Assembly (NCBI RefSeq): GCF_014268755.2 | Contig: NZ_CP077093.1 | Coordinates: 6,446,501-6,510,500 of the forward strand | Source: Pseudomonas vanderleydeniana | GTDB lineage: Bacteria > Pseudomonadota > Gammaproteobacteria > Pseudomonadales > Pseudomonadaceae | Length of the DNA: 64,000 bases | Reading direction: 5' to 3' | Part shown: positions 227 to 36,674 of the stretch, in pieces | Position numbering within the stretch: the stretch's first letter is position 1 | Layout of the letters: every line of letters starts with the position of its first letter | The notes under the pieces: generated by a model | Seen by the model: the letters and a program-made list of their open reading frames with translations, nothing else | Told to the model about the DNA's origin: nothing | Database searches by the model: none | Program-made: the position numbers and the translations under genes

Positions 227-880
227 ATGGATTTCAACCCGCTGGACCTAATCCTGCATCTCGATGTGTACCTCGACATGCTGGTGAACAATTACGGGCC
301 ATGGATCTACGCCATCCTGTTCCTGGTGATCTTCTGCGAAACCGGCCTGGTGGTGATGCCGTTCCTGCCAGGCGACTCGCTGCTGTTCATCGCCGGTGCC
401 GTCGCGGCGGGCGGCGGCATGGACCCGGTGCTGCTGGCCGGGCTGCTGATGCTGGCAGCGATCCTCGGTGACAGCACCAACTACATCATTGGCCGAACGG
501 CCGGCGAAAAGCTCTTCAGCAACCCGAACTCGAAGATCTTCCGCCGCGACTACCTGCAGAAGACCCACGATTTCTACGACCGCCACGGCGGCAAGACCGT
601 GACCCTGGCGCGCTTCCTGCCGATCCTGCGGACCTTCGCACCGTTCGTCGCCGGCGTTGGCAAGATGCCCTATGCACGCTTCTTCGGCTTCAGCGTGCTG
701 GGCACCGTGCTCTGGGTCGGCGGCCTGGTGACGCTCGGCTACTTCTTCGGCAACGTCCCGTTCATCAAGAAGAACCTGTCGCTGCTGGTGGTCTTCATCA
801 TCCTGCTGTCGCTGGTCCCGATGATCATCGGTGTGCTGCGCAGCCGCTTCGGTGGTGCCTCCAAGGCCGAGACCCACTAA
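227..880 (+). CDS. DedA family membrane protein
   Basis: This 217-residue inner-membrane protein of the DedA/VTT (SNARE-associated) family has the usual length. Hydrophobic segments lie at about residues 22-45, 48-62, 68-85, 135-165 and 185-207. The family signature is present: GDSTNYIIGR at about 85 and a G-rich segment with RFLPILRTFAPFVAG at about 128-142. DedA proteins support membrane lipid flipping and proton-motive-force homeostasis; the substrate here is not shown by sequence. The ATG follows an ACAGGTG Shine-Dalgarno-like sequence. The next gene starts only 4 nt downstream, which suggests co-transcription. Confidence 0.9.
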   Translation: MDFNPLDLILHLDVYLDMLVNNYGPWIYAILFLVIFCETGLVVMPFLPGDSLLFIAGAVAAGGGMDPVLLAGLLMLAAILGDSTNYIIGRTAGEKLFSNPNSKIFRRDYLQKTHDFYDRHGGKTVTLARFLPILRTFAPFVAGVGKMPYARFFGFSVLGTVLWVGGLVTLGYFFGNVPFIKKNLSLLVVFIILLSLVPMIIGVLRSRFGGASKAETH

Positions 881-884
881 TTCC

Positions 885-1697
885 GTGTGGTCGCTGAGTG
901 CCTGGCGCCGCCGCCGAACCCTTGCCCGCCATCCCATTGCCAGTGAAACCTGGCAGCGGGTGCGCGAGCACCTGAGTTTTCTCGACGGCCTGAGCGAGGC
1001 CGAGGACCGCTGGCTGCTGGAGCACAGCGTGCTGTTCCTCGCCGACAAGCACCTGAGCACCTTACCGGGGGTCGAGCTGGACCAGTACAGCCGCCTGCTG
1101 CTGGCCGCCCAGGCGCAACTGCCGTTGCTGCACCTGGGCGACCTGGAATGGTATTCGGGCTTTCATGAGATCGTGCTGTACCCGGACGACTTTCTCAGCC
1201 CGCAGCGTCATCGCGATGCCAGTGGCGTCGAGCATGAGTGGGACGCCGAGCACAGCGGCGAAGCCTGGCACCGTGGCCCGGTGATCCTCGCCTGGCCCGG
1301 CGTGCTCGCCAGTGGCGCCTGGGAAGGCTACAACCTGGTGATTCACGAACTGGCGCACAAGCTCGACATGCTCAACGGCGACGCCAACGGCCTGCCGCCG
1401 CTGCACAGCGACATGCGGGTCGGCGACTGGGCCCAGGCGATGCAACATGCCTACGACGACCTCAACCGCCAACTCGACCGCGACCCCGATGCCGAAACCG
1501 CCATCGATCCCTATGCGGCGGAAAACCCGGCGGAGTTCTTCGCGGTGACCAGCGAATACTTCTTCAGTGCCCCGGATTTGCTGGACGCCGCCTACCCCAG
1601 GGTTTACGAACAACTGCGCGCGTTCTATCGCCAGGACCCGCTGGCGCGGCTACACCGCCTGCAGGCGCACGACCCGCGCTATCAGCCTGGGCACTGA
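885..1697 (+). CDS. mtfA: MtfA-type zinc-dependent peptidase (M90 family)
   Basis: This cytosolic metallopeptidase of about 270 residues is related to E. coli MtfA, the protein that binds the Mlc repressor and influences glucose PTS control. The zinc motif HELAH (within VIHELAHKLDML, about residue 152) is clear, and NPAEFFAVTSEYFF further on provides the conserved acidic segment. I chose GTG at 885 (VWSLSAWRRRR), which starts 4 nt after the DedA stop. The frame is open further upstream to 831 but would then overlap DedA. Its role in Pseudomonas, which has a different sugar PTS, is not settled. Confidence 0.85.
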   Translation: MWSLSAWRRRRTLARHPIASETWQRVREHLSFLDGLSEAEDRWLLEHSVLFLADKHLSTLPGVELDQYSRLLLAAQAQLPLLHLGDLEWYSGFHEIVLYPDDFLSPQRHRDASGVEHEWDAEHSGEAWHRGPVILAWPGVLASGAWEGYNLVIHELAHKLDMLNGDANGLPPLHSDMRVGDWAQAMQHAYDDLNRQLDRDPDAETAIDPYAAENPAEFFAVTSEYFFSAPDLLDAAYPRVYEQLRAFYRQDPLARLHRLQAHDPRYQPGH

Positions 1698-7414: not shown

Positions 7415-8596
7415 ATGACGCTACACATCCCGACCCTGCTCATTGTGTCGGTGTTCATCTTTTGCGTGATGGGCCTGCTGACCCTGCACGCCTGGAGCCG
7501 TGAGACCCGCGAGCGACCGCTCGCCTACCTCGGCAGCATGATGCTGCTGGTATCGCTGGGCATGCTGCTGGTGAGCCTGCGCGGCCTGGGCGTCGACTTC
7601 GTGCCCGTGGTGCTGGGCAATATCGCACTGTTGCTGGGCGCGGCGATGAACTGGACGGCGATGCGTGTCCTGGCCGGACGAGCACCGTGGCTACCGGGGA
7701 TCCTGGCCGGTGTGGTGACCTGGCTGATCCTGTGCCTGGTACCCGCGTTCATGGAGTCGCTGAGTGCCCGGGTCACCGCCTACTCGCTGCTGACCGTCGC
7801 TTATGGCTCCGCCACCGTGCTGGAGTTCTGGCGCAGCCAGAGGAGCCTCGAAGTCTCCTACCTGCCAGCGTTTCTGCTGACCTTGCTGCACACCGTGTTC
7901 TATTGCATCCGCGCGGTCTATGACACGGGCCTGGGGCAGGACCAGGCCCTGGCCGGCGCCGGCAAGGGCACCTCATTTTTCTCGTTCATGCTGTTCGAAG
8001 CGATGGTCTACGTGATCGGCATTGCCTACATGACCCTGGCAATGGTCAAGGAGCGCGCCGAGTTGCGCTTCAAGGCGGCCGCCTACAGCGATGCCCTGAC
8101 CGGCATCGGCAACCGCCGCGCCTTCATGAGCCGCAGTGAACAGCTGCTGGAGAGCTGCAAGCGGCGTGGCACGGTGGTTGCGCTGCTGCTCTGCGACCTC
8201 GACCACTTCAAGCGCCTGAACGACACCTTTGGCCACGCCGTGGGCGACCAGGCGCTGATCGCCTTCAGCCGCGTCATGAGCCGGACATTGCACAAGCTGG
8301 ACGTGTTCGGGCGCATTGGCGGGGAAGAATTCGCCTGCCTGCTGGAAAGCGACGAGGCTGCAGCCGTCGACGTGGCGGAACGTATCCGCCTGGAGTTCGC
8401 CGCGCTGCCCCTGCTCGAGCCGGGACTGCTCAGCGTCAGCATCGGCGTGGTGACGACACGGGAGAACGGGCACGACCTGTCACGACTGCTGTCCCTGGCG
8501 GACGAGGCACTCTACGGGGCCAAGGGCAAGGGCCGCAACCGGGTGGAGGTGGCGCCGGGCAGCGCTGCAGCCTGGCTCATGGAGGATCAGGGATAG
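7415..8596 (+). CDS. Membrane diguanylate cyclase (GGDEF)
   Basis: This 393-residue protein has six or seven hydrophobic segments in residues 5-210, resembling a 7TM-type sensor module. A C-terminal GGDEF domain carries an active-type GGEEF at about residue 302 and DALTGIGNRRAF at about 227. It should make cyclic di-GMP from two GTP at the inner membrane. The inhibitory RxxD site reads HKLD, so product inhibition is probably lost. ATG 7415 has GGAGC upstream. It follows the c-di-GMP/LRR pair on the same strand. Its stop overlaps the convergent magF stop by 10 bp. Confidence 0.9.
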   Translation: MTLHIPTLLIVSVFIFCVMGLLTLHAWSRETRERPLAYLGSMMLLVSLGMLLVSLRGLGVDFVPVVLGNIALLLGAAMNWTAMRVLAGRAPWLPGILAGVVTWLILCLVPAFMESLSARVTAYSLLTVAYGSATVLEFWRSQRSLEVSYLPAFLLTLLHTVFYCIRAVYDTGLGQDQALAGAGKGTSFFSFMLFEAMVYVIGIAYMTLAMVKERAELRFKAAAYSDALTGIGNRRAFMSRSEQLLESCKRRGTVVALLLCDLDHFKRLNDTFGHAVGDQALIAFSRVMSRTLHKLDVFGRIGGEEFACLLESDEAAAVDVAERIRLEFAALPLLEPGLLSVSIGVVTTRENGHDLSRLLSLADEALYGAKGKGRNRVEVAPGSAAAWLMEDQG

Positions 8597-9396
8597 CTGA
8601 ACTTGCGCACCAGCGTCAGTTCGCCCGGTGCACGCATCGGGACGATGAACGACTCCATCTTCTCGTTCACCGTGCCCTCTTCCGTGATCAGCGTGATCTT
8701 CGCCGTGGTCAACGCCTGTACGGCGTTTTCCTGGCCGCCGTCCTCGTCGTCATCGCTGCGGTAGCCACCGCCGTAGTAGTTCACGTAGATCAGGTACTGG
8801 CCCTTGATCGGCGCGGGCATGGAGAAGATCTCCGGGCCGTAACCGGTGGTGACGTCGACGTCCAGCGAGCCGCCGTTGGGCGCCGTGCGGTCGCCGTACC
8901 AGATGTGCGCGCCGTCCGGGGTGACCACGTGCAGGTCGAGGTCGGTGTGGTCGCTGTCCCAGGACAGCAGGATGCGCAGCTTGGCCTTGGTCGCACCGCC
9001 GGAGTTGAGGAACTGCACGCGCTTGCGCTGCTGCCCGTCGGGGCTGCGGACCTCGACGCTGTTGGTGCCGTTGGGGAAGGCGAACGGCCGGTCGAAGTTG
9101 CCAGCGGCATCGATCTTCAGCGGCATGCTCACGCCGTTGACGATGAGGTTGCCCGGCTCGCGGGCATTCTTCGGCGCGCCCTTGATCTGGCCCATGATCC
9201 GCGCCGTGTCGGCCTGGCCCAGTGGCGTATTGACCGACGAGGCCGGGTAGTTGACGGTCTGGCTGTAGTTTTCGCCATCCGACGAACCCTGGCGCCATCC
9301 TCCGCGCGGGGTGTCGAGCTTGATCTCGGCTTGGGCCGTGCTCAACGCCGTCAGGGCGACGAGGAACAGGGCTACGGTTGGGATACGCAATGTCAT
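8587..9396 (-). CDS. magF: MagF: DUF2135 periplasmic protein, last gene of the mag operon
   Basis: This 269-residue secreted protein has a signal peptide (residues 1-23, ending LSTAQA). The DUF2135 core lies at about 145-210: LRILLSWDSDHTDLDLHVV, TPDGAHIWYG and YLIYVNYYGG. It is homologous to E. coli YfaP and to MagF, reported in P. aeruginosa with the alpha-2-macroglobulin MagD. The DxDLHV pattern is typical of a beta-sandwich that may bind metal. It is paralogous to magA at the other end of the operon. It starts 3 nt after magE. Its precise role is unknown; association with MagD at the envelope is inferred from the family. Confidence 0.85.
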   Translation of the reverse strand: MTLRIPTVALFLVALTALSTAQAEIKLDTPRGGWRQGSSDGENYSQTVNYPASSVNTPLGQADTARIMGQIKGAPKNAREPGNLIVNGVSMPLKIDAAGNFDRPFAFPNGTNSVEVRSPDGQQRKRVQFLNSGGATKAKLRILLSWDSDHTDLDLHVVTPDGAHIWYGDRTAPNGGSLDVDVTTGYGPEIFSMPAPIKGQYLIYVNYYGGGYRSDDDEDGGQENAVQALTTAKITLITEEGTVNEKMESFIVPMRAPGELTLVRKFSYP

Positions 9397-9399
9397 GGC

Positions 9400-11043
9400 C
9401 TATTCCAGTAACAGGTGGCGGGCAAGCCCTTCGATGTAGTCTTCGTCCTGGCCGTTCGGGTGGGCTTCGAATGCCAGGTGCAGGTATTCATGGGTCAGGT
9501 CGAGGCGGTCCTGCTGGGTCAGCACGCCGCGCACGTAGATGCGCTGACGCTCGCGGTCGACATACGGGCGACCGAACGACACGCGGCAGACGGCGAAGCG
9601 GCTCAGTTCGTTATAGCCGACTTCCCGGTCCAGCCGCTGGCGCCAGACCCGGCGCTGCTTGAGCAGCCACTCCTGGGCCGCCGGCAAGGGGTCGCAGGAG
9701 GCCACCGGGTTGTCCCAGCGACTCAGGCTCGCCCGCGGGTAGGCGTGCTGCAGGATCTGGTCGTAGCGCGCGCCGTTGCTGGCCTGCTCCACGGCCTGCT
9801 GCCAGGACAGCTTGTCCGGGCCGGACAGCTCGGAGTGATAGGTCACCGGGCTGCCGGCCAGCACCAGATCGCTGGTCCAGGCGGCGATGGCGCGCGCCTC
9901 GGCCGTGGCCGGTCGCGGTGCCACGCGCTGGCGACTGCTGCTGTCGTCGATGCTCAGGCAGTCACCGCTACGCCCAGCGTTCTGCAACAGGTAGCTGCGG
10001 ATCGCCACGGCCAGGGCCTTGGCCGCCTCGACCGGTTCGCTCTTGGCCTCGCGCTGCAGGACCCGGGCGACGTATTCCTCGCGATCGAGCCGGGCCACCA
10101 GTTGTGGCTGGCCGGCGTTGTTCAGCAGGAACAGTTCACCGGCGCTTTCGATGTCGAGTTGGTTGCCGTTGGCGAAGTCGACCCGGTAGCGACCTTGCAG
10201 GCCACCCTCCGCAGCCGCTTGCCCATCGGCACGGCTGACGCCCTTGAGCGGGTAGCGCGAGAACAGCTCGACCTGCACGCAGCGCCCGGCGTCCTCCGCC
10301 CGGGGTGCTGGCAGGAAGCTGCCGAGCACGTCCGAATAGTGCCGCAACACCATCTGGCTGGTACCGCGACCACCGGCCCAGAGCGGCGTCCCGTCCGCCA
10401 GCCAGCCGGCGAAGCCGCCCTGGCGCGACTGTGGGTCCTGGTCGCCGAGCCAGCTCCAGGTCTTGACCCGCAGGCGCCCACCTAGCACCGCCACTGCCTG
10501 GCCGTCGGCAGCGTTGAGCACCACGTCGAGCAGCAGCTTGCGCGCACTGTCCTGGGCCGGCAGCGTGCGCAACGCTTCCAGCAGTTGAACGACGGGAACG
10601 CGGGTCTGCGGCTGCAACCGCTCGAGGCCGAGCAGCCACTCCGGAGCCTGGCGCGCCTGCCAGTAGCTGCGCCACTGGACGGGATCAATGTCCAGGCGCC
10701 TGGGATCGAAGTACAGGCCACAGGAGCGGACCAGCGCCGCCTCACGGGCGATGCTGCCGCCCGGGGTGCAGCAATAGACTTCTTCGTGATCCTGGCCATG
10801 GCAGTCGTAGGCTGGCTCCTGCCGGTCGGTGTCCACCAGCCAGGCATAGACGAACAGTTTCCACAGGCTGCCCAACGGCGTCTGCAAGTCCGCCGGCAGC
10901 GGCTCGCGACCGAGCACCTGGGTGGTGTTCAACTGCACCAGCTCGTAGCCGTCAGCGGTTTTCCAGGCCAGGCGCAGCGGCGCCTCCTCTGCCGTCGCCA
11001 GCAGAGGAAGGATGCACAGCAGCCAGGTCAGCGAGCGGATCAT
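9400..11043 (-). CDS. magE: MagE: DUF2300 secreted protein with SxxK, SpoIID-like and HEXXH motifs
   Basis: This 547-residue protein is homologous to E. coli YfaQ (DUF2300) and has a signal peptide at residues 1-18. The N-terminal part carries S59-L-W-K62 (PLGSLWKLF), like the SxxK motif of penicillin-binding proteins and class D beta-lactamases. The middle part (about 345-390) has EAKSEPVEAAKALAVAIRSY, resembling SpoIID/LytB. The extreme C-terminus has HEYLH (518-522) with Glu538 downstream, a zinc-peptidase-like pattern. These motifs point to peptidoglycan contact, but whether any site is active is unknown. ATG 11043 follows the magD stop by one base (TGACATG), a coupled junction. An upstream in-frame start inside magD is unlikely. 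Confidence 0.8.
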   Translation of the reverse strand: MIRSLTWLLCILPLLATAEEAPLRLAWKTADGYELVQLNTTQVLGREPLPADLQTPLGSLWKLFVYAWLVDTDRQEPAYDCHGQDHEEVYCCTPGGSIAREAALVRSCGLYFDPRRLDIDPVQWRSYWQARQAPEWLLGLERLQPQTRVPVVQLLEALRTLPAQDSARKLLLDVVLNAADGQAVAVLGGRLRVKTWSWLGDQDPQSRQGGFAGWLADGTPLWAGGRGTSQMVLRHYSDVLGSFLPAPRAEDAGRCVQVELFSRYPLKGVSRADGQAAAEGGLQGRYRVDFANGNQLDIESAGELFLLNNAGQPQLVARLDREEYVARVLQREAKSEPVEAAKALAVAIRSYLLQNAGRSGDCLSIDDSSSRQRVAPRPATAEARAIAAWTSDLVLAGSPVTYHSELSGPDKLSWQQAVEQASNGARYDQILQHAYPRASLSRWDNPVASCDPLPAAQEWLLKQRRVWRQRLDREVGYNELSRFAVCRVSFGRPYVDRERQRIYVRGVLTQQDRLDLTHEYLHLAFEAHPNGQDEDYIEGLARHLLLE

Positions 11044-11044
11044 G

Positions 11045-14000
11045 TCATTCGACCGTGACTTGTCCGAGGGCTGCCTTCTGTTCCTGGGCCTGGTGCTCCG
11101 GCGCATAGATCTGACTGAAGCGCGCTGGCGGCAGCTTGAACTGGCCCTTCTGCGAGAAGCGGATCAGGTGGCGCACGCGCACTTCGCCGTTGAGGCTGTT
11201 GACCGGCACGCCATAGGCCATCTGCCCGGGCTCGAAGTGTGCCTTCTCCAGTGGCGTGGCCTCCTCACCGGCCAGGCCGGCCAGGTTGACACCCCAGGTG
11301 GTGCGCTCGACATCCGCACCCGGCGGCAGCGGCAGCTCGAGCATGCCGTAGCGCACCGGCTTGGCAGCCTTGCTGGTGAGGGTCACTTCGTCCAGGTAGA
11401 GGCTGTCGCTGGACAGCGGCTTGTCGCCCACGGCCTTGAGGCTGAAGGTATTGGCGTCGCCATCCGGCACCAGTTCCAGCAGGCGGCGCCTGATCTGCAC
11501 CGGCAGGTCGGCGGCGGCCTTGCCCTGGCTGAGGTAGCTCAGGCTGGCCCGCAGCGGACGTTCCTGGGCACCGCTCAGGGTCAGCACGCTCGGTACGCCC
11601 TGGCCTTGCCACTGCCAGTAGGCCTCACCGGTGCTGCCCTGGCGAACCTGCCAGCCTTCACCCGGCGTCAGGTTGACCATTTTCGGGGTCTGCTCGACGC
11701 TGCGCTGCAGCCAGGTCAATGCCAGGGCACGCTCCAGGGTGGATTGCTGCGGCAGCAGGCGCTGCAGCAGGTCCTGGGCCTGCTCGGCATTGAACGGCTT
11801 GAGCGACAGGTTCAGCGCCGTGGCGAACGGTTGCGCACTGGCGCCTAGGCGCTGTTCGGCCGCCGGCAGTTGCTTGCTGAACGCGTCCGGCAAGGCAACC
11901 TTGCCCTGGCGCGCCAGCGCGGCGGTCAGTACCCGCGCGCTGGCCAGGCCCAGGGCCGAGTCCGGCGCGCCCATGACCACGCTGTCTTCACCATCATCCA
12001 GCAGATTGGCATCGGCGCCCTCGCCGGCTTTCGCCAGCTCGTCCATCAGGCCGCTGAGCAGGGTGTTGACCGGCAGTTGCATCTCCTTGGCGAACGACAG
12101 CACCAGCGCCCGTTGCAGCAACGGCGTGGCGCCAGCCTGCTTGCCATAGACGTCCAGCACCCGCTGCCAGTGCTCCGGCGGCAGGCTCACGCCCAGGGCC
12201 TTGCTGGCGTACCAGTCGGCGTAATAGGCGTAGCCGGTGAGGAAGGCATCCGGCGTGACGTCCTCGCCCCACCAGGTGAACCAGGCCTCGGGGCCTGCCA
12301 TCGATACCAGGCGCAGGCGGCTGTTCTGCAGGATCAGGCGCAGGCGATCGCGGATCTGCGCGTTACCCGACAACGCCGGGTAGGCGATGCTCAGCGGCAG
12401 CAACTGGCTGGCGGTCTGCTCGACGCCACCGTAGGGGTAGCTGAGCAGGTCGTCGAGGCTGGCGCGGAACAGCGCCTGCGGGCTGTCGTCGAGGCGCAGG
12501 CGAATGTCGCTGGCATCGGCCGGCAAGCTCAACGGGGTATCGCCACTGGCAACGCTGAGGCTCTGGCTCTGGGTCACCTGCCAGCCGTCGCCGACGGCGG
12601 TGAGGCGCACGGCCAGGGTGTCCTGGGCCTTGCCGTTCTGTTGCAGTTCGGCCGTCCAGTCGCCGCCGCTCAGGGCGGTCGCCGGCAGCGCGATATAGTT
12701 GACGCCCTTGTTCAGCGACAGCGGCAGGCGCTGTTCCTGGCCGGCGTAGCGGATCAGCAGTTCGGCCTTGGCCGGCTTGTCGTCCTGGCTGAAGGCGAAC
12801 AGGCCGAGCTTGGGCTGGTCGCCGTTGCGGAAGTGGGTCGGGCCACTCCACTTCAGGTACAGCGGCTTGTCGGAACGGATGAACTGGTTGCGCTGACCCA
12901 CCTGCCCGGCGTCGGAGATGGCCCGGGCGGTGATGCGCCAGCGGGTCAGCGAGTCCGGCATGCGGAAGGTGAAACGCACCTTGCCATTGGCATCGGTGAC
13001 CAGTTCCGGCTGCCAGGCGGCGGTGTCGACGTCTTCGCGACGCGGCCGCTCCAGCACCTTGACCCCACGCTCGCTGCGGTTGGCCTTGCCTGGCGCGCCA
13101 GGGCTGCCCGGCAGGGCCACGTCGTAGCTGATGAACGACAGGCTGGCGCTGGTACGCACGTTGTTGCGCCGCGGGTGGTAGAAGAACTGGTCGATGCTCG
13201 GCGCCACTTCCGGCTGCAGGGCATAAATCATTTCGTCCACCACGCTGACGGTCAGGTGCGCCGGGATCGGCTTGCCGGCGAACTGGGTGATCAGGTCCAC
13301 CGAGACGGTATCGCCCGGCTGGTAGCTGTCCTTGTCGGTGGCGATGGCCACGTCGATCTGCGGCGTGGCGACCTTGAGGCCGGCGTTCTGGAAGCTGTAC
13401 TCACCGCCCTTGGTGTAGAGCACCGAGAAGGTCAGGTTGGGGGCGAAGTTATCCTTCACCGGAATCCGTGCGCGGTACTGGTTGGCGCTGATCTTCTCCA
13501 GGCGCAGCCAGTCGGCGCCCTTGGACAGCAGCGCGGTGGCCTCGACCTTGTCGCGCTCCAGCGACAGCAGTGCGTCGTTGACCGGTTCCGGGAAGGTGAT
13601 CAGTGCCAGGGCTTCGTCACCGGCGTGATACTCGGGCTTGTCGAGCAGGATCTCGACGGTACCGGGCACGGCTTTCACACCGTCGCCGGTGACCGAGTGG
13701 CCGGCGGCGCCGAGGATGCGCTCGTGGTCATCCTTGAGCGACAGGTTGTAGGTGCCGGGACGATCGAAGGTGACGCTGAAACCCTTGTCGCCGGCCGCCA
13801 GCTTGCCGCCACCGGTGGTCTGGTCCTCCAGGCGCACCCAGCTGTAGCTGCTTGGTTTGCTGGCGTTGGCCTGCTCCACGCCGGACTCGTTGGCGTAGCT
13901 GAACGCGACCGTCTCGCCACTGGCGCTGAAACGCTGCGGGGCCGACAGGCTGTAGCGCGAAGCGCCACGCTCGATGAGGATCTCCTTGGTGGTCTTGACC

Positions 14001-15616
14001 CGGTACGCGGCGCCATCGCTGGCGAACACGGTGAGCATGTAGCGGCTGGGCTTCTCCGCGGCCGGCAGGTCGAGTGCGGCCTGGCCCTTGTCGTCGGTGG
14101 TCAGCTCGGCGCTGGTCAGTTCCACCGGGAATTGCCCGAGGTACTGCAGTTCGTTGTCGACCATCGACAGTTGCTGGGCGCGCAGGGTCAGTTGCACCCG
14201 TGCGTCGGCCACCGGCTTGCCGTCCGGGTACAGCAGTTGCAGCTTGCCCTTGACCGGCTCGCCGGTGCGGAAGTCCTGCTTGGCCAGGTCCAGGGAAATC
14301 TCGAAGTGCGGCTTGATGTACTCGGCGACGCGGAAGGCGCTGCTGTAGGTCTGGTCGCGGTAGGTGAAACGCAGTTCGTAGCCGCCGGCCACGGCATTGT
14401 CCGGCAGCTGGAAACGGCCCTGGGTACCGGCCTTGCCGTCCAGGTTCAGGTCCAGGGTCTGCAGCGTGGTGCCGGTGGCATCGAGCACGCTGACCCGCAC
14501 CGGGGCGCCGGTCGGGTTGACCGAGTCACGGGCGTTCTTGAATTCGCGACCGACGATCTTCAGCGACACCCAATCCCCCGGCCGGTACAGCGGCCGGTCG
14601 GTGAAGGCGTAGAGCTTGGTGTCGTAGATTTCGCTGTCGTAGTAGAAGTTCTCGGAGACGAACACCCCGCCCTCGTCATCCTCGCCGATCATGAACGAGC
14701 GCTCCGGGCTGACGTGCTTGAGGCGCAACAGGCCGTCGGCATCGGTCTCGCCGCTGCTCATCACGCCCAGGCCGTCGGTCCACAGCACCTTGACCTTGGG
14801 CACCGAGCTGCCTTCATGCTTGCGCGCAGCCCAGACCATCAGCTCGTCACCGGCGATCTTGCTCACGGCCACGGTGTTGGAGACGAACACCACGGTGGTC
14901 GCGCGGTATTTGCCGACCAGCGCCTCGACCAGGTACAGGCCCGGTTTCAGCTTGCCCAGCGGAATGTAGACGTTACCCGGTGCGACGCTGACGAACTGGC
15001 TGGAGGAGCCGGCCAGGTCGACACCCTTCGGCGGCTGGATCGGCTTGGCGTCCCACAGCGGGTAGCGGAACTGGCTGACCAGCGGCAGGCCCGGCAGCGG
15101 CGCGTATTGCGGCGGGTTGTCGTACGGAGTCGGCCGATTGAAGCTGTCGCCCATCTTCAGTTCCGGCACTTGCTCGGTCACCTGCTTGCGCGACTCGTAG
15201 GAGAACGCCCGCTGCATCACCCGGCGGGACTTGCGGTACCAGTTGTCCCACAGGTAGGCCAGGGTGTTGGACAGCCCCTCGCCCTTGAACTGGCCGTCGC
15301 TGACCACCCGGTGCAGGTTCTTCTGGCGCTTGAGGAATTCCAGCGGCTGGTCGATGCGGTACACGCGGATGTCCGCGCCGCCATACGGTTCCATGCGGAA
15401 GCGCCGGTAGTCACGGCCCGGCGCTTCAAGGCGGACCAGCGCCTGCTCGTCACTGGCGAAGCTGCTGTCGGCGAGCAGGAAGAAGCTTTCACCGGCAATC
15501 GGCGTGTAGTTGCTCGGCGCAACCGAGTCGTCGGCGGCACCTGCGGCGACCGGCAACAGCACGGCCAGGGCGAAAACCATTCGGGATAACAGACGCATCA
15601 TGGAAGACCCGTTCAT
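11045..15616 (-). CDS. magD: MagD: bacterial alpha-2-macroglobulin (YfaS type)
   Basis: This large periplasmic alpha-2-macroglobulin homologue of 1523 residues has a signal peptide (about residues 1-27, ending PVAAGA). It has a run of MG beta-sandwich domains (for example [12 protein letters not shown] at about 365) and a complement-like helical region. The thioester site reads GGVEQ at about 1063-1067, where thioester-bearing relatives have CxEQ, so the cysteine is missing. This matches the YfaS/MagD class, which cannot cross-link covalently. In P. aeruginosa MagD is reported to bind partner Mag proteins and PBP1b. ATG 15616 overlaps the magC stop (ATGA); two in-frame ATGs at 15601 and 15598 are alternatives. 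No good Shine-Dalgarno precedes it, so translational coupling is likely. Confidence 0.93.
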
Positions 15617-16242
15617 CGAGAGAGGAAGTTCAGCCGGTAGACGCCGATGAAGTTGGGGTTCGTTGCATCGGGTATCCATCGGGTGTCCTTCCATGTCATG
15701 AGTTGCTGCACGCTGGCGGAGCGCATGCCGTTGTCGGTGGGGGTGGTGGTGCCGGTGTGATAGGCGATGTTGCGGCCCATCCAGATCATCAGGTGCTGGT
15801 CGTCGCCCTGGTCGAAGAACAGCAGGTCACCGGGCCGCGCCTGGTTGAGGTCGCGGCTGACCAGCTGGCTGTTGAACTGGATCAGCTTGATCGCGTTGAC
15901 GTAGGGCCCGACCTTGCCGCCACCCTGCTGCCATTGCTGGGCCAGCTTGCGCTGGCTGTCGCTCAGGGTCAGCTCGGGTGGCAGGTAGCGGTTGGACAGG
16001 CCATTGGCCCGCAACCACTTGTCATCGTGTTGCTTGAGCGCCTCGTTGGCGGCGAAGCGCACCAGGCCGGCGCAGTCCTGCTGGTACCAGCGCGGACTCG
16101 GGCCCTGGGTCAGCTGCTCCTGGGCGATGCGCACGAACCAGGCGCGGAACACCTGGGATTGCTCGACATCCAGGGCGGGTGTTTCGACGGCGAATGCCGA
16201 CGTGCTGAACAGCAGCGCCAGTACGCACAGGCGCCCCCTCAC
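15613..16242 (-). CDS. magC: MagC: DUF1175 protein with NlpC/P60-like Cys-His motifs
   Basis: This 209-residue secreted protein is homologous to E. coli YfaT (DUF1175). GTG 16242 gives a clean signal peptide ([18 protein letters not shown]). The open frame continues upstream to 16443, but that part is translated REPIN sequence. The mature protein has [16 protein letters not shown] (Cys57) and RPGDLLFF followed by QHLMIWMG (His150). These correspond in order and spacing to the catalytic Cys and His blocks of NlpC/P60 peptidoglycan peptidases. Activity is inferred, not shown. It overlaps magD by 4 nt. The REPIN separates it from magB. Confidence 0.82.
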
Positions 16243-16243
16243 C

Positions 16244-16374
16244 GTGGCGAGTGGGCTTGCCCACGCTCGGCTGCGCAGCGGCCGCAAAGCCAGCCACCGC
16301 GTTGCATCAGCCAGGCCCCGTTCGCAGGTTTCAGGGCTGCCATGCAGCCCAGCGTGGGCAAGCCCACTCGCCAC
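16244..16374. repeat. REPIN between magB and magC
   Basis: Two inverted REP arms, GTGGCGAGTGGGCTTGCCCA at 16244 and its near-perfect complement ending at 16374, enclose a variable spacer. The element begins 1-2 bases upstream of the magC start codon and fills most of the magB-magC gap. It will fold as a large hairpin in the operon mRNA. Confidence 0.85.
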
Positions 16375-16412
16375 AGCCGTGCAACGTTGCCAGGCGGTGC
16401 TGAACATGGACG

Positions 16413-18152
16413 TCACATCGCCCGCCATTGCAGCGGCAGCCACTGCCAGTGGCCTTCAGGCTCGGTACCTTCGGGCAGGGTCAGGGCGTACTTGCCGAAG
16501 CCGGCGAGCTTCTGCAGCTTGGGCAGCAGGTGGGTCTGCGCGGCGTTGCGGAACACCGGTTCCATGTCCTGGGGCAGGCTGTCGAGGGTTTCCTGCTTCA
16601 TCAGTTGCGCCAGGGAATCCGGGCCGAGGTACACCGGTGTCAGCGCATCCTTGGGCACCACGTCGGCCAACGGAGGGAAGTGCTTGTCGAGCGTGCCGAG
16701 GGCCTTGTCCACCAGCTTGTCGTCCAGCGAGAACAGTAGGGTCGAGCCATGCCGCGCCAGGCTCACGCGGAAGAAACCGCGGCCGGTGATGGTGTCGGGG
16801 TTCTCGGCTTCCTTGGCGGCGTACTGGCCGAAGGTCGAACTGACCACGCGCTTCCACTGATGCAGGCCGTCCTTGTTCTGCTCGTCGATCGGGAACAGGC
16901 CGCCCTCGACGTTGCTTTCCTGGGTGCCGACCATGGAACCGAACAACTTGCCGAGGTCGGCATCGAGGCTGTCGTTGTCCTTGTTCAGGTTCGCTACCAA
17001 CAGCGGCGTGTACAGGCGCGAATCGGCGTACCAGCACAGGCCGGCGGCACCGCTCATGTGCTCGGTGAGTTTCTGTGCGGTGGCCGCATCGGCACCGAGC
17101 TTGACCAGCAGCGGCTGTTGCTGCTCGGCAGCCAGTGGCAGCGCCACGCAGGCACTGGCGCCGACCGGCATGGCCTGCCAGATCGGCTTGAAGTCGTAGT
17201 CGACGGCCTTGTCCTGCTCGTCGAGCGCCAGGAAGCTGTGCCAGCCCTTGTCGTCCATGTCCAGGCGCAGGCCGGCGAAGCTCGGGATGAAGCGCTGGTA
17301 ACCCATGGCGAGGACGCTGGAGGCCACCGAGATGCGCTGCTTCACTGCCGCTTCACGTGGCTTGAGACCAAAGGCCTCGGGGAACAGTTTTTCACCACCG
17401 AGCAGCGCGGCCAGGGCCTGGGTCGAGACTTCGCCCGGGGCTACTTCACTGTCGTCACTGGATTGTTCGTAGAGGCGGTCCGGGTTGGACAGCACCACCA
17501 GCTTGTCACCACGGGAAGCGAACAGCAGCGCCTTGCTGGCGTTGTAGGCCAGGCGGTAGAGCGCCACGCTGTCGCCGGCGACCTTCACTTCGCCGACCTT
17601 GGTCAACTGGGTGTCGTCGAGGGCGACGTGGGCCAGCGGCTCGAGCAGCTTGGCCAGGCCACCGCGGTCCATCACCAGCAGGAAATCCCTGAGCCGGCCA
17701 TCGGTGCCACGCCACAGGGCGATGTCGGCGGGCTGGTCGAACAGTTGCTCGATCAGGTTGTCCTGCAGCTTGAGGTCATGCTCGTAGATGATCCGCCGCA
17801 GGCTGCCGATCAGGCCCAGGCGGTCGCCGTGGGTCTCGTAGTAGAAGACGAAATCCTCGGTGAGGGTGTCGCGCAGGAACGGTACGCTGAGCAGGTCCTT
17901 GGGCAACTGGCTCAGCGACGCGGTTTCGAACAGCGCGTCCGGACGACTGACGCCAAGTTTTTCCAGGGCCAGCTCCGGCACCGGGGCAACGGACTTGTGC
18001 TTGAAAAACCAGCCCAGGCCACCGACCACCGCACCGGTCACGCAAAGGCCGAGCACAAGGCCCAGCCAGCGGCGCGAGCCGGCAGGTGGAGGGGTGGCCG
18101 GCGCAGCGGCAGCCGGGGAAGCAGTGTGATCGCTCATGTTCGCAAAGCCCAT
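16413..18152 (-). CDS. magB: MagB: DUF2138 inner-membrane-anchored protein
   Basis: This 579-residue protein is homologous to E. coli YfaA (DUF2138) and to P. aeruginosa MagB. The N-terminus is rich in Ala and Pro (residues 8-27) and is followed by one transmembrane segment at about 30-50 ([20 protein letters not shown]). The rest should be periplasmic. That topology fits a membrane anchor for the macroglobulin complex. No catalytic motif is evident. Start 18152 has ACGGA upstream; ATG 18137 (MSDHT) is an alternative. It lies 20 nt after magA. Confidence 0.85.
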
Positions 18153-18172: not shown

Positions 18173-18964
18173 TCAATAGTTGAAGGTCTTGACCAGCAGC
18201 AGGTCGCCGATCGCGCGCAGTGGGACGGTAAAGCTCTCGCGCTTTTCATCGACGGTGTTTTCGTTGAGCACCAGGTTGATCTGCGAGGTGATGACCTCGT
18301 TCTGGTTGGCGCGCTCGGTAAAGTTATAGCCGTCGCTGGCGCTGTAGTTGCCCCAGTAGTTGACGTAGACCAGGTAGGTACCGTGCATCGGCGCGGTCAT
18401 GGTGAACATCTCCGGGCCGGGGCCGTCGACACCGTCGGGGTCGAGGCCGCCGCCGTTGCTCAGGCGCGGATTGGCGTAGAAAGCGTGCTGGCCATCGGGC
18501 GTGATGATGTGCAGGTCGAGTTCGGCCTTGGGATCGTCCCAGCCCAGTACCACGCGAATGCGCGCCGGGGTGATCTGCTTGTTGGCTTCGTAGAACTGCA
18601 CGCGCTTGAGCGACTTGCCTTGGGAACTGCGCACTTCGACGCTGTTGGAGCCGGCGCCGAAAGCATAGGGGCGGACAAACCGGCCGTTGTCGTCGGTGTA
18701 GAGATTCAGCGGGTTGCCGTTGACCGACAGGGTGTGTGGCTCGCGCGGGCCGGAGGGCGGGTTGATCCGCCCCTCGATCGGCGTGCGGCTGCGCTGGATG
18801 CCACGGTCGATGGGCGGCGTCGGGTAGGCCACCTGCGGCGCATCGCTGCGATCGAGCAGGCCCGAATAGCGCCAGCCGCCGGTCGGTTCCTGAAGCTCGG
18901 CCGAGGGCTCGGCCCAGGCGGCCGCGGCCCAGAGGGCGATCAGGATGGGAAATAACCGGTGCAT
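18173..18964 (-). CDS. magA: MagA: DUF2135 periplasmic protein, first gene of the mag operon
   Basis: This 263-residue secreted protein has a signal peptide (MHRLFPILIALWAAAAWA). The DUF2135 core is at about 135-205 (IRVVLGWDDPKAELDLHII, YLVYVNYWG). It is a paralogue of magF. ATG 18964 was chosen because a perfect AAGGAGG lies 6 nt upstream; an in-frame ATG at 18982 would leave that site inside the gene. As the first gene it carries the operon's leader. In P. aeruginosa the mag operon is reported to be under Gac/Rsm control, and the ribosome site here fits an RsmA/E target. Confidence 0.87.
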   Translation of the reverse strand: MHRLFPILIALWAAAAWAEPSAELQEPTGGWRYSGLLDRSDAPQVAYPTPPIDRGIQRSRTPIEGRINPPSGPREPHTLSVNGNPLNLYTDDNGRFVRPYAFGAGSNSVEVRSSQGKSLKRVQFYEANKQITPARIRVVLGWDDPKAELDLHIITPDGQHAFYANPRLSNGGGLDPDGVDGPGPEMFTMTAPMHGTYLVYVNYWGNYSASDGYNFTERANQNEVITSQINLVLNENTVDEKRESFTVPLRAIGDLLLVKTFNY

Positions 18965-18970
18965 CAACAG

Positions 18971-18978
18971 CCTCCTTG
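18971..18978 (-). promoter_or_regulatory. magA ribosome site matching the Rsm consensus
   Basis: CAAGGAGG matches CANGGANG, the RsmA/CsrA binding consensus, and is also the Shine-Dalgarno of magA. The flanking GC pairs could place it in a small hairpin loop. Translational repression by Rsm proteins is inferred. Confidence 0.5.
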
Positions 18979-19376
18979 CCATGCATCACGAAACCCTGCG
19001 CCCGGTCCATACCCGGCACACCACTGAAACACGAAAAATCAGAAAGAACCTGGCGATGCAGGTCGGGAAGTCGCAGAGGGTAGCGATTCAGATCTTGTTA
19101 CACAATGGCGGAAAACGGGTATTTGCGGGGGCGATCAGCAAATGAGAGATCGTGCACACTCAACCCGCTGGAAGCCAGGTAAAACAAGGCAAAAGGCCAC
19201 CATCCCAAGCTGTCATATGACCTGAAAATTCCTCTCCCCCCTGGGTGTAGAATGCAGACCGCCAAAACGCCGCAGACGCACCTGAAGCCCTCCTGATTGG
19301 CAACCCCTCGCATTTGCCCCGAAACCCGCTGTCTGCTAGTGTCGCGCCCGTTAAAACGCCTACCGAGATCGCCGCC
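18979..19376. other. Divergent spacer between magA and xseB
   Basis: About 400 bp contain no convincing gene. It must hold the magA promoter (minus strand) and the xseB promoter (plus strand). A TAGAAT -10-like hexamer near 19246 could serve xseB. No REP element or clear operator is visible. Confidence 0.6.
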
Positions 19377-36578: not shown

Positions 36579-36674
36579 TGGCGGAAGGCAGCGGGAGTCG
36601 AACCTGCCCGGGAACGGCTGCCGTCCCCAACCGGGTTTGAAGCCCGGCCGCGCCACCGGGCGCGATTGCCTTCC
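36579..36674 (-). tRNA. selC: tRNA-Sec (anticodon UCA)
   Basis: This 96-nt gene, including an encoded CCA, folds as a selenocysteine tRNA. It has an 8-bp acceptor stem (GGAAGGCA/TGCCTTCC), a long extra arm, a G discriminator and the anticodon TCA in the loop of CCGGGCTTCAAACCCGG. It is charged with serine and converted by SelA to selenocysteinyl-tRNA for delivery by SelB. It lies directly beside selB. Confidence 0.95.

Follow-up and report, generated by a model that had tools for sequence, protein, structure and literature searches.

MagE, a predicted three-module exported protein of the mag operon with a likely zinc-peptidase module

The magE locus and conservation of its motif residues

The magE gene was examined in a 64,000-nucleotide stretch of the Pseudomonas vanderleydeniana genome (i.e. 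contig NZ_CP077093.1, positions 6,446,501 to 6,510,500; hereafter the window); the genome is a single contig of 7.0 Mb. The mag operon comprises six genes on the minus strand, namely magA (DUF2135; 18173..18982), magB (DUF2138; 16413..18152), magC (DUF1175, with weak NlpC/P60 similarity; 15613..16443), magD (a type II alpha-2-macroglobulin; 11045..15694), magE (9400..11043) and magF (DUF2135; 8587..9396). The assignments of magA, magB, magD and magF came from Pfam; magC and magD are open reading frames (the longest one for magD) with provisional start codons. The gaps on either side of magE are 1 base (magD stop to magE start) and 3 bases (magE stop to magF start), a close packing that indicates a single operon. 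Translation of magE from ATG to stop yielded 547 residues with Pfam matches to DUF2300 and SpoIID, and a protein search placed the product nearest to Pseudomonas proteins. A Sec signal peptide was predicted for residues 1-19 (MIRSLTWLLCILPLLATA/E; 10987..11043) by reading of the sequence. A hydropathy scan of the mature part indicated no further membrane helix, the highest 19-residue Kyte-Doolittle mean being 1.48.

A first-pass annotation of this DNA had claimed that one secreted protein combines S59/K62, a SpoIID motif and HEYLH (518-522) with Glu538. Conservation of these residues was examined in 261 proteins, consisting of the window's own MagE, 240 sequences from two protein searches, the Escherichia coli K-12 protein YfaQ and 19 sequences from whole-genome searches. 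The searches were not restricted by motif; the protein search seeds on shared 5-residue words, possibly including motif ones. In MagE, SLWK starts at residue 59, HEYLH starts at residue 518 and is the sole HExxH, and Glu538 lies within DEDYIEG. K194, T195 and E332 were each present in 261/261 proteins, H518, E519, H522, E534 and E538 each in 260/261, and S59, K62 and S107 each in 259/261. All of the non-matching cells were gaps in partial rows (P0204 and P0215 at the N-terminus, P0212 at the C-terminus), with zero substitutions. Residue 196 was W in 260 proteins and F in one. Thus the three motif sets of this predicted secreted protein were confirmed as invariant barring gaps, and the Ser, Lys, His and Glu residues singled out in the first-pass annotation do not vary freely among homologues.

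Clustering at 90% left 107 representatives, in which 83 of 528 mature positions were invariant, including all ten key residues (hypergeometric P 5.7e-9). The same ten were invariant in 17 representatives at 70% (P 7.5e-8) and in 5 at 60% (P 1.4e-6); these P values suppose that positions are drawn at random and are inflated by kinship among the sequences. At 90% the only invariant His were 518 and 522, the only invariant Lys 62 and 194, the only invariant Glu 332, 519, 534 and 538, and the only invariant Ser 59, 107 and 369, whilst all eight mature Cys were invariant. Among the 5 representatives at 60%, one additional His and three additional Glu were invariant. A second SxxK (residues 166-169) served as an inner control, and neither its Ser nor its Lys was invariant. 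As the motif residues are invariant and the Pfam SpoIID match lies above its cut-off (see below), the sequence comparisons indicate that the SxxK, SpoIID and HExxH assignments are not chance matches.

Three modules of different classes

Module 1 spans residues ~20-250 (10294..10986; all MagE features are on the minus strand). Structure comparison of the MagE model placed this module in the class D beta-lactamase/BlaR1-sensor fold, and the matches obtained with the full model spanned module 1 only. The SxxK motif of penicillin-recognising serine enzymes is present as S59-L-W-K62 (10858..10869; two proteins gapped). The SxN/SxV position is occupied by S107-C-G109 (10717..10725), which reads SCG in 259/261 proteins with two gapped, so that the Ser is invariant and the third residue is Gly. 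The KTG position is occupied by K194-T-W196 (10456..10464), the third residue not being Gly in any of the proteins (KTW in 260, KTF in one). Penicillin-binding was rejected as the main function of MagE on the basis of KTW in place of KTG, and the earlier description of the protein as penicillin-recognising was not upheld. From these sequences, a beta-lactam may not fit the MagE pocket, given KTW and SCG.

Module 2 (residues ~255-445; 9709..10281) is SpoIID-like, with its core fixed by a Pfam match to residues 313-372 and a profile match to 4rwr_A, and its outer limits read off the model. Pfam SpoIID scored 30.9 bits on MagE and 27.0 bits on YfaQ against a cut-off of 23. A full MagE profile recovered the SpoIID chain 4rwr_A among solved structures (E 0.002) and was the only structure-sequence search to recover SpoIID; the whole MagE sequence gave just two cadherin matches (E 0.42) and a C-terminal profile gave nothing below E 0.77. 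Glu332 (10048..10050) aligned with the Glu of the 'ASEM/AGEM' stretch of SpoIID ('SEM/GEM' in 4rwr, 5i1t and 5txu), which we take to be the catalytic Glu. MagE therefore shares a Pfam match and an aligned Glu with the SpoIID/LytB lytic transglycosylases but differs from them in the size of the module, at ~190 residues versus 330-354 in the solved chains, and in scoring far below the cut-off of NCBIfam TIGR02669 SpoIID_LytB (25.5 versus 83.3 bits). The glycan binding proposed in the first-pass annotation retains this SpoIID match as its one line of evidence.

Pfam DUF2300 (PF10062) matched two stretches of MagE, at residues 83-205 (10429-10797) and 410-530 (9454-9816). These had no significant mutual similarity (12.7 bits, E 1.6) and differed in predicted secondary structure, and two copies of one domain were rejected on both grounds. 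PF10062 apparently combines two unlike segments, which makes the name 'tandem DUF2300' misleading.

Module 3 (residues 450-547; 9403..9696) is HExxH metallopeptidase-like and occurs elsewhere as a free-standing protein. HEYLH (9478..9492) was conserved in 260/261 fused proteins (one gapped), and both HExxH and the Glu helix were kept in 41/41 free-standing proteins. In the model, Glu534 (9442..9444) and Glu538 (9430..9432) lie on helix 534-546, which is the next after the HExxH helix; Glu538 is the likely third zinc ligand and Glu534 the predicted alternative. Comparison of the module 3 model gave a middling match to gluzincin-like metallopeptidases. Like the minigluzincins (abylysin, selecase and jannalysin), the modelled module is ~100 residues long and has another helix after that of HExxH. 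Module 3 is very probably a metallopeptidase. Each motif set of MagE therefore belongs to a different class, as had been proposed; the structure comparison bears this out well for module 1 and less closely for module 3.

Known systems resemble MagE in part. YfaQ (b2226) is an orthologue with the same operon order (yfaA-yfaT-yfaS-yfaQ-yfaP) and retains SLWK, SCG, KTW, DREA, HEYLH and the Glu helix. Its setting differs in that the K-12 annotation marks the macroglobulin gene, yfaS, as a pseudogene. BlaR1 and MecR1, in the portions of PMC6925264 drawn on here, are membrane proteins with an N-terminal protease and a C-terminal sensor. As modelled, MagE also joins a class D-like sensor to a gluzincin-like module, the protease match being middling. 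However, MagE differs from them in lacking any predicted membrane helix beyond the signal peptide, in its reversed order, in the SpoIID module in between and in KTW for KTG. MagE is not a BlaR1/MecR1 member, owing to the absence of a membrane part, the reversed order and KTW. A type I bacterial macroglobulin is encoded beside PBP1C, a penicillin-binding-type wall protein (PMC4498604, from the part available). That wall protein is predicted to be a bifunctional synthase, whereas MagE has a PBP-like module fused to a likely peptidase.

Distribution of MagE and its zinc module

The MagB family was found in 15/398 genomes, which were exactly the 15 holding the zinc module; in three broken-up assemblies (G321, G352 and G386) the two were on different contigs. 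The zinc-site set was the one of the three MagE motif sets present in all 15 MagB-bearing genomes compared. A free-standing zinc module within a mag operon, with neither wall-type module in the fetched DNA, was observed at 8/80 named loci (8 rather than 9, as L066 starts at a contig edge and was left out). Alone or fused, the zinc module went with the operon throughout the genomes searched, whilst the two wall-related modules are missing from some operons. In a MagB tree of 37 rows, the fused and free-standing states required three changes, of which at least two were forced by well-supported branches. The free-standing Serratia locus L082 grouped beside E. coli within the fused set (support 96/95), a placement flagged for long branches and odd letter make-up. 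The N-terminal modules were likely lost at least once, and on the simplest reading the operon retains its zinc module as the other two come and go. Operon position and co-occurrence strengthen the earlier proposal, drawn from sequence, that MagE may be a peptidase working beside MagD.

MagE was present in 16/99 genomes of the host's family, the window's own included, and this patchiness fits repeated loss or transfer. A class-wide DUF2300 search was positive in 3/274 genomes, again including the window's own. Two candidates were dropped: G064 scored below the DUF2300 cut-off and had no such protein among open reading frames of at least 150 residues at the locus, and a phylum-wide match (G320/L020) covered 73 residues of the SpoIID part only, with no HExxH and no other mag gene in 3.2 kb. 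In E. coli, yfaQ-like DNA covering at least 80% of the query was found in 5,321/5,426 genomes and yfaS-like DNA in 5,314, the counts being made gene by gene on DNA similarity, with yfaS intact or not.

Other features of the operon and window were also recorded. Sub-threshold NlpC/P60 similarity was detected in 6/6 DUF1175 proteins tested (18.0-22.2 bits, cut-off 23), which suggests a wall peptidase-like fold for MagC at the sequence level. Six Pseudomonas loci (L035, L076, L083, L084, L098 and L106; P. capsici, viridiflava, caspiana, cichorii, ovata and bohemica) lacked a DUF2135 gene following magE within the DNA fetched and seem to have lost MagF. PADLOC returned no match for MagE, MagD, MagC, MagB or MagA (i.e. 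five of six Mag proteins submitted). The window contains a second metallopeptidase of family M90 (831-1697, plus strand; Pfam 293.9 bits), presumably MtfA-like, and a selenocysteine tRNA gene (36579-36674, minus strand).

Proposed function of MagE

Deletion of magE in P. aeruginosa altered the amount of MagD, produced higher-mass MagD forms and apparently prevented processing, for which either a chaperone or a signal-peptide function was suggested (PMC5764988). In the same study, a stable MagE-MagD complex was not found, the 100 kDa MagD form was also lost without MagB, and the Figure 6 legend and text disagree on magC. Earlier work cited there puts MagE in the cytoplasm; export is favoured by the predicted signal peptide and by the eight invariant Cys. 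The magD gene confers protection from two effectors that cut the wall, VgrG3 and Tae1 (PMC12663445), and deletion of yfaQ produced wider E. coli cells, like mepS and mepK deletions (PMC12282094). The latter paper presents YfaQ as bipartite, with transpeptidase-like and SpoIID-like parts, and hence these two parts are already known in print. The terms HEXXH, metallo-, zinc and gluzincin do not occur in its main text, nor do HEXXH, metallo- and zinc in that of PMC5764988, the Mag-protein study among the PA4488 papers. 'DUF2300' was named in no paper of the literature searched, which left most subscription papers and bioRxiv outside. Within that literature, we found no published account of the metallopeptidase module, of its occurrence as a separate protein or of its link with MagB and MagD.

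Based on the MagD forms of the magE deletion, the predicted export, the protection by magD against effectors and the wall phenotype of yfaQ, we propose the following scheme. MagE, as predicted, is exported and has three modules, of which the C-terminal HExxH one is likely a zinc peptidase and would mature MagD, with modules 1 and 2 likely anchoring it at peptidoglycan or letting it read peptidoglycan. His518, His522 and Glu538 (or Glu534) on the following helix would be the zinc ligands and Glu519 the general base. The putative substrate is MagD, either as the full-length precursor or at the 165 to 100 kDa step. Wall peptides or glycans, and not beta-lactams, would be the ligands of the SxxK/KTW pocket and SpoIID groove, and maturation or licensing of MagD would thus take place at sites of exposed or damaged wall. 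The wall role of modules 1 and 2 may also act without MagD. For this scheme as a whole, we regard the chances as about evenly balanced. An extended version, with MagE as a soluble counterpart of BlaR1 in the periplasm, is unlikely and is offered as speculation. Here a class D-like wall reader and a SpoIID glycan reader would switch on the C-terminal zinc protease and arm the macroglobulin at cut peptidoglycan (e.g. after attack by a type VI secretion system (T6SS) effector), with the bare protease serving the same macroglobulin sensor-free in other lineages.

Peptidoglycan remodelling by MagE itself, with the Ser, Glu and zinc sites acting on the wall and the MagD effect being indirect, is possible though rather unlikely. 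Modules 1 and 2 are of wall-acting classes, the yfaQ deletion resembles those of mepS and mepK (PMC12282094, parts consulted), yfaS is a pseudogene by annotation in K-12 and MagC has weak NlpC/P60 similarity. However, the zinc module occurs without either wall module at the 8/80 loci described above, and KTW for KTG speaks against ordinary transpeptidase or carboxypeptidase chemistry. The published suggestion of a chaperone would make MagE a non-enzymatic factor for MagD export or assembly that has retained old enzyme folds. Although the changed amount and higher-mass forms of MagD in the magE deletion agree with such a role (PMC5764988, portions consulted), the invariant His and Lys are all catalytic-type, the invariant Glu are those of SpoIID and the HExxH/Glu helix, and a chaperone would hardly need the HExxH and Glu helix of all 41 free-standing proteins, so that we consider this explanation distinctly improbable. 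Least probable is that module 3 is a peptidase acting on foreign proteins, such as T6SS effectors entering the cell, and that MagD is its partner rather than its substrate. Protection by magD against VgrG3 and Tae1 (PMC12663445, in part) and the travelling of module 3 with the mag operon favour this idea, but it leaves the altered MagD forms of an attacker-free magE deletion unexplained.

The function of type II bacterial macroglobulins and the processing of MagD are standing questions in the portions of PMC5764988 and PMC12663445 consulted. The zinc-peptidase-like module of MagE, free-standing in some lineages and adjoining MagD wherever the fetched DNA reaches, is a candidate MagD-processing enzyme, and this candidate narrows the processing question to one inactivating residue change. 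The two fused modules tie the mag operon to the wall, which would be in keeping with protection from effectors that cut the wall, and MagE may represent a soluble, Gram-negative analogue of the BlaR1 design.
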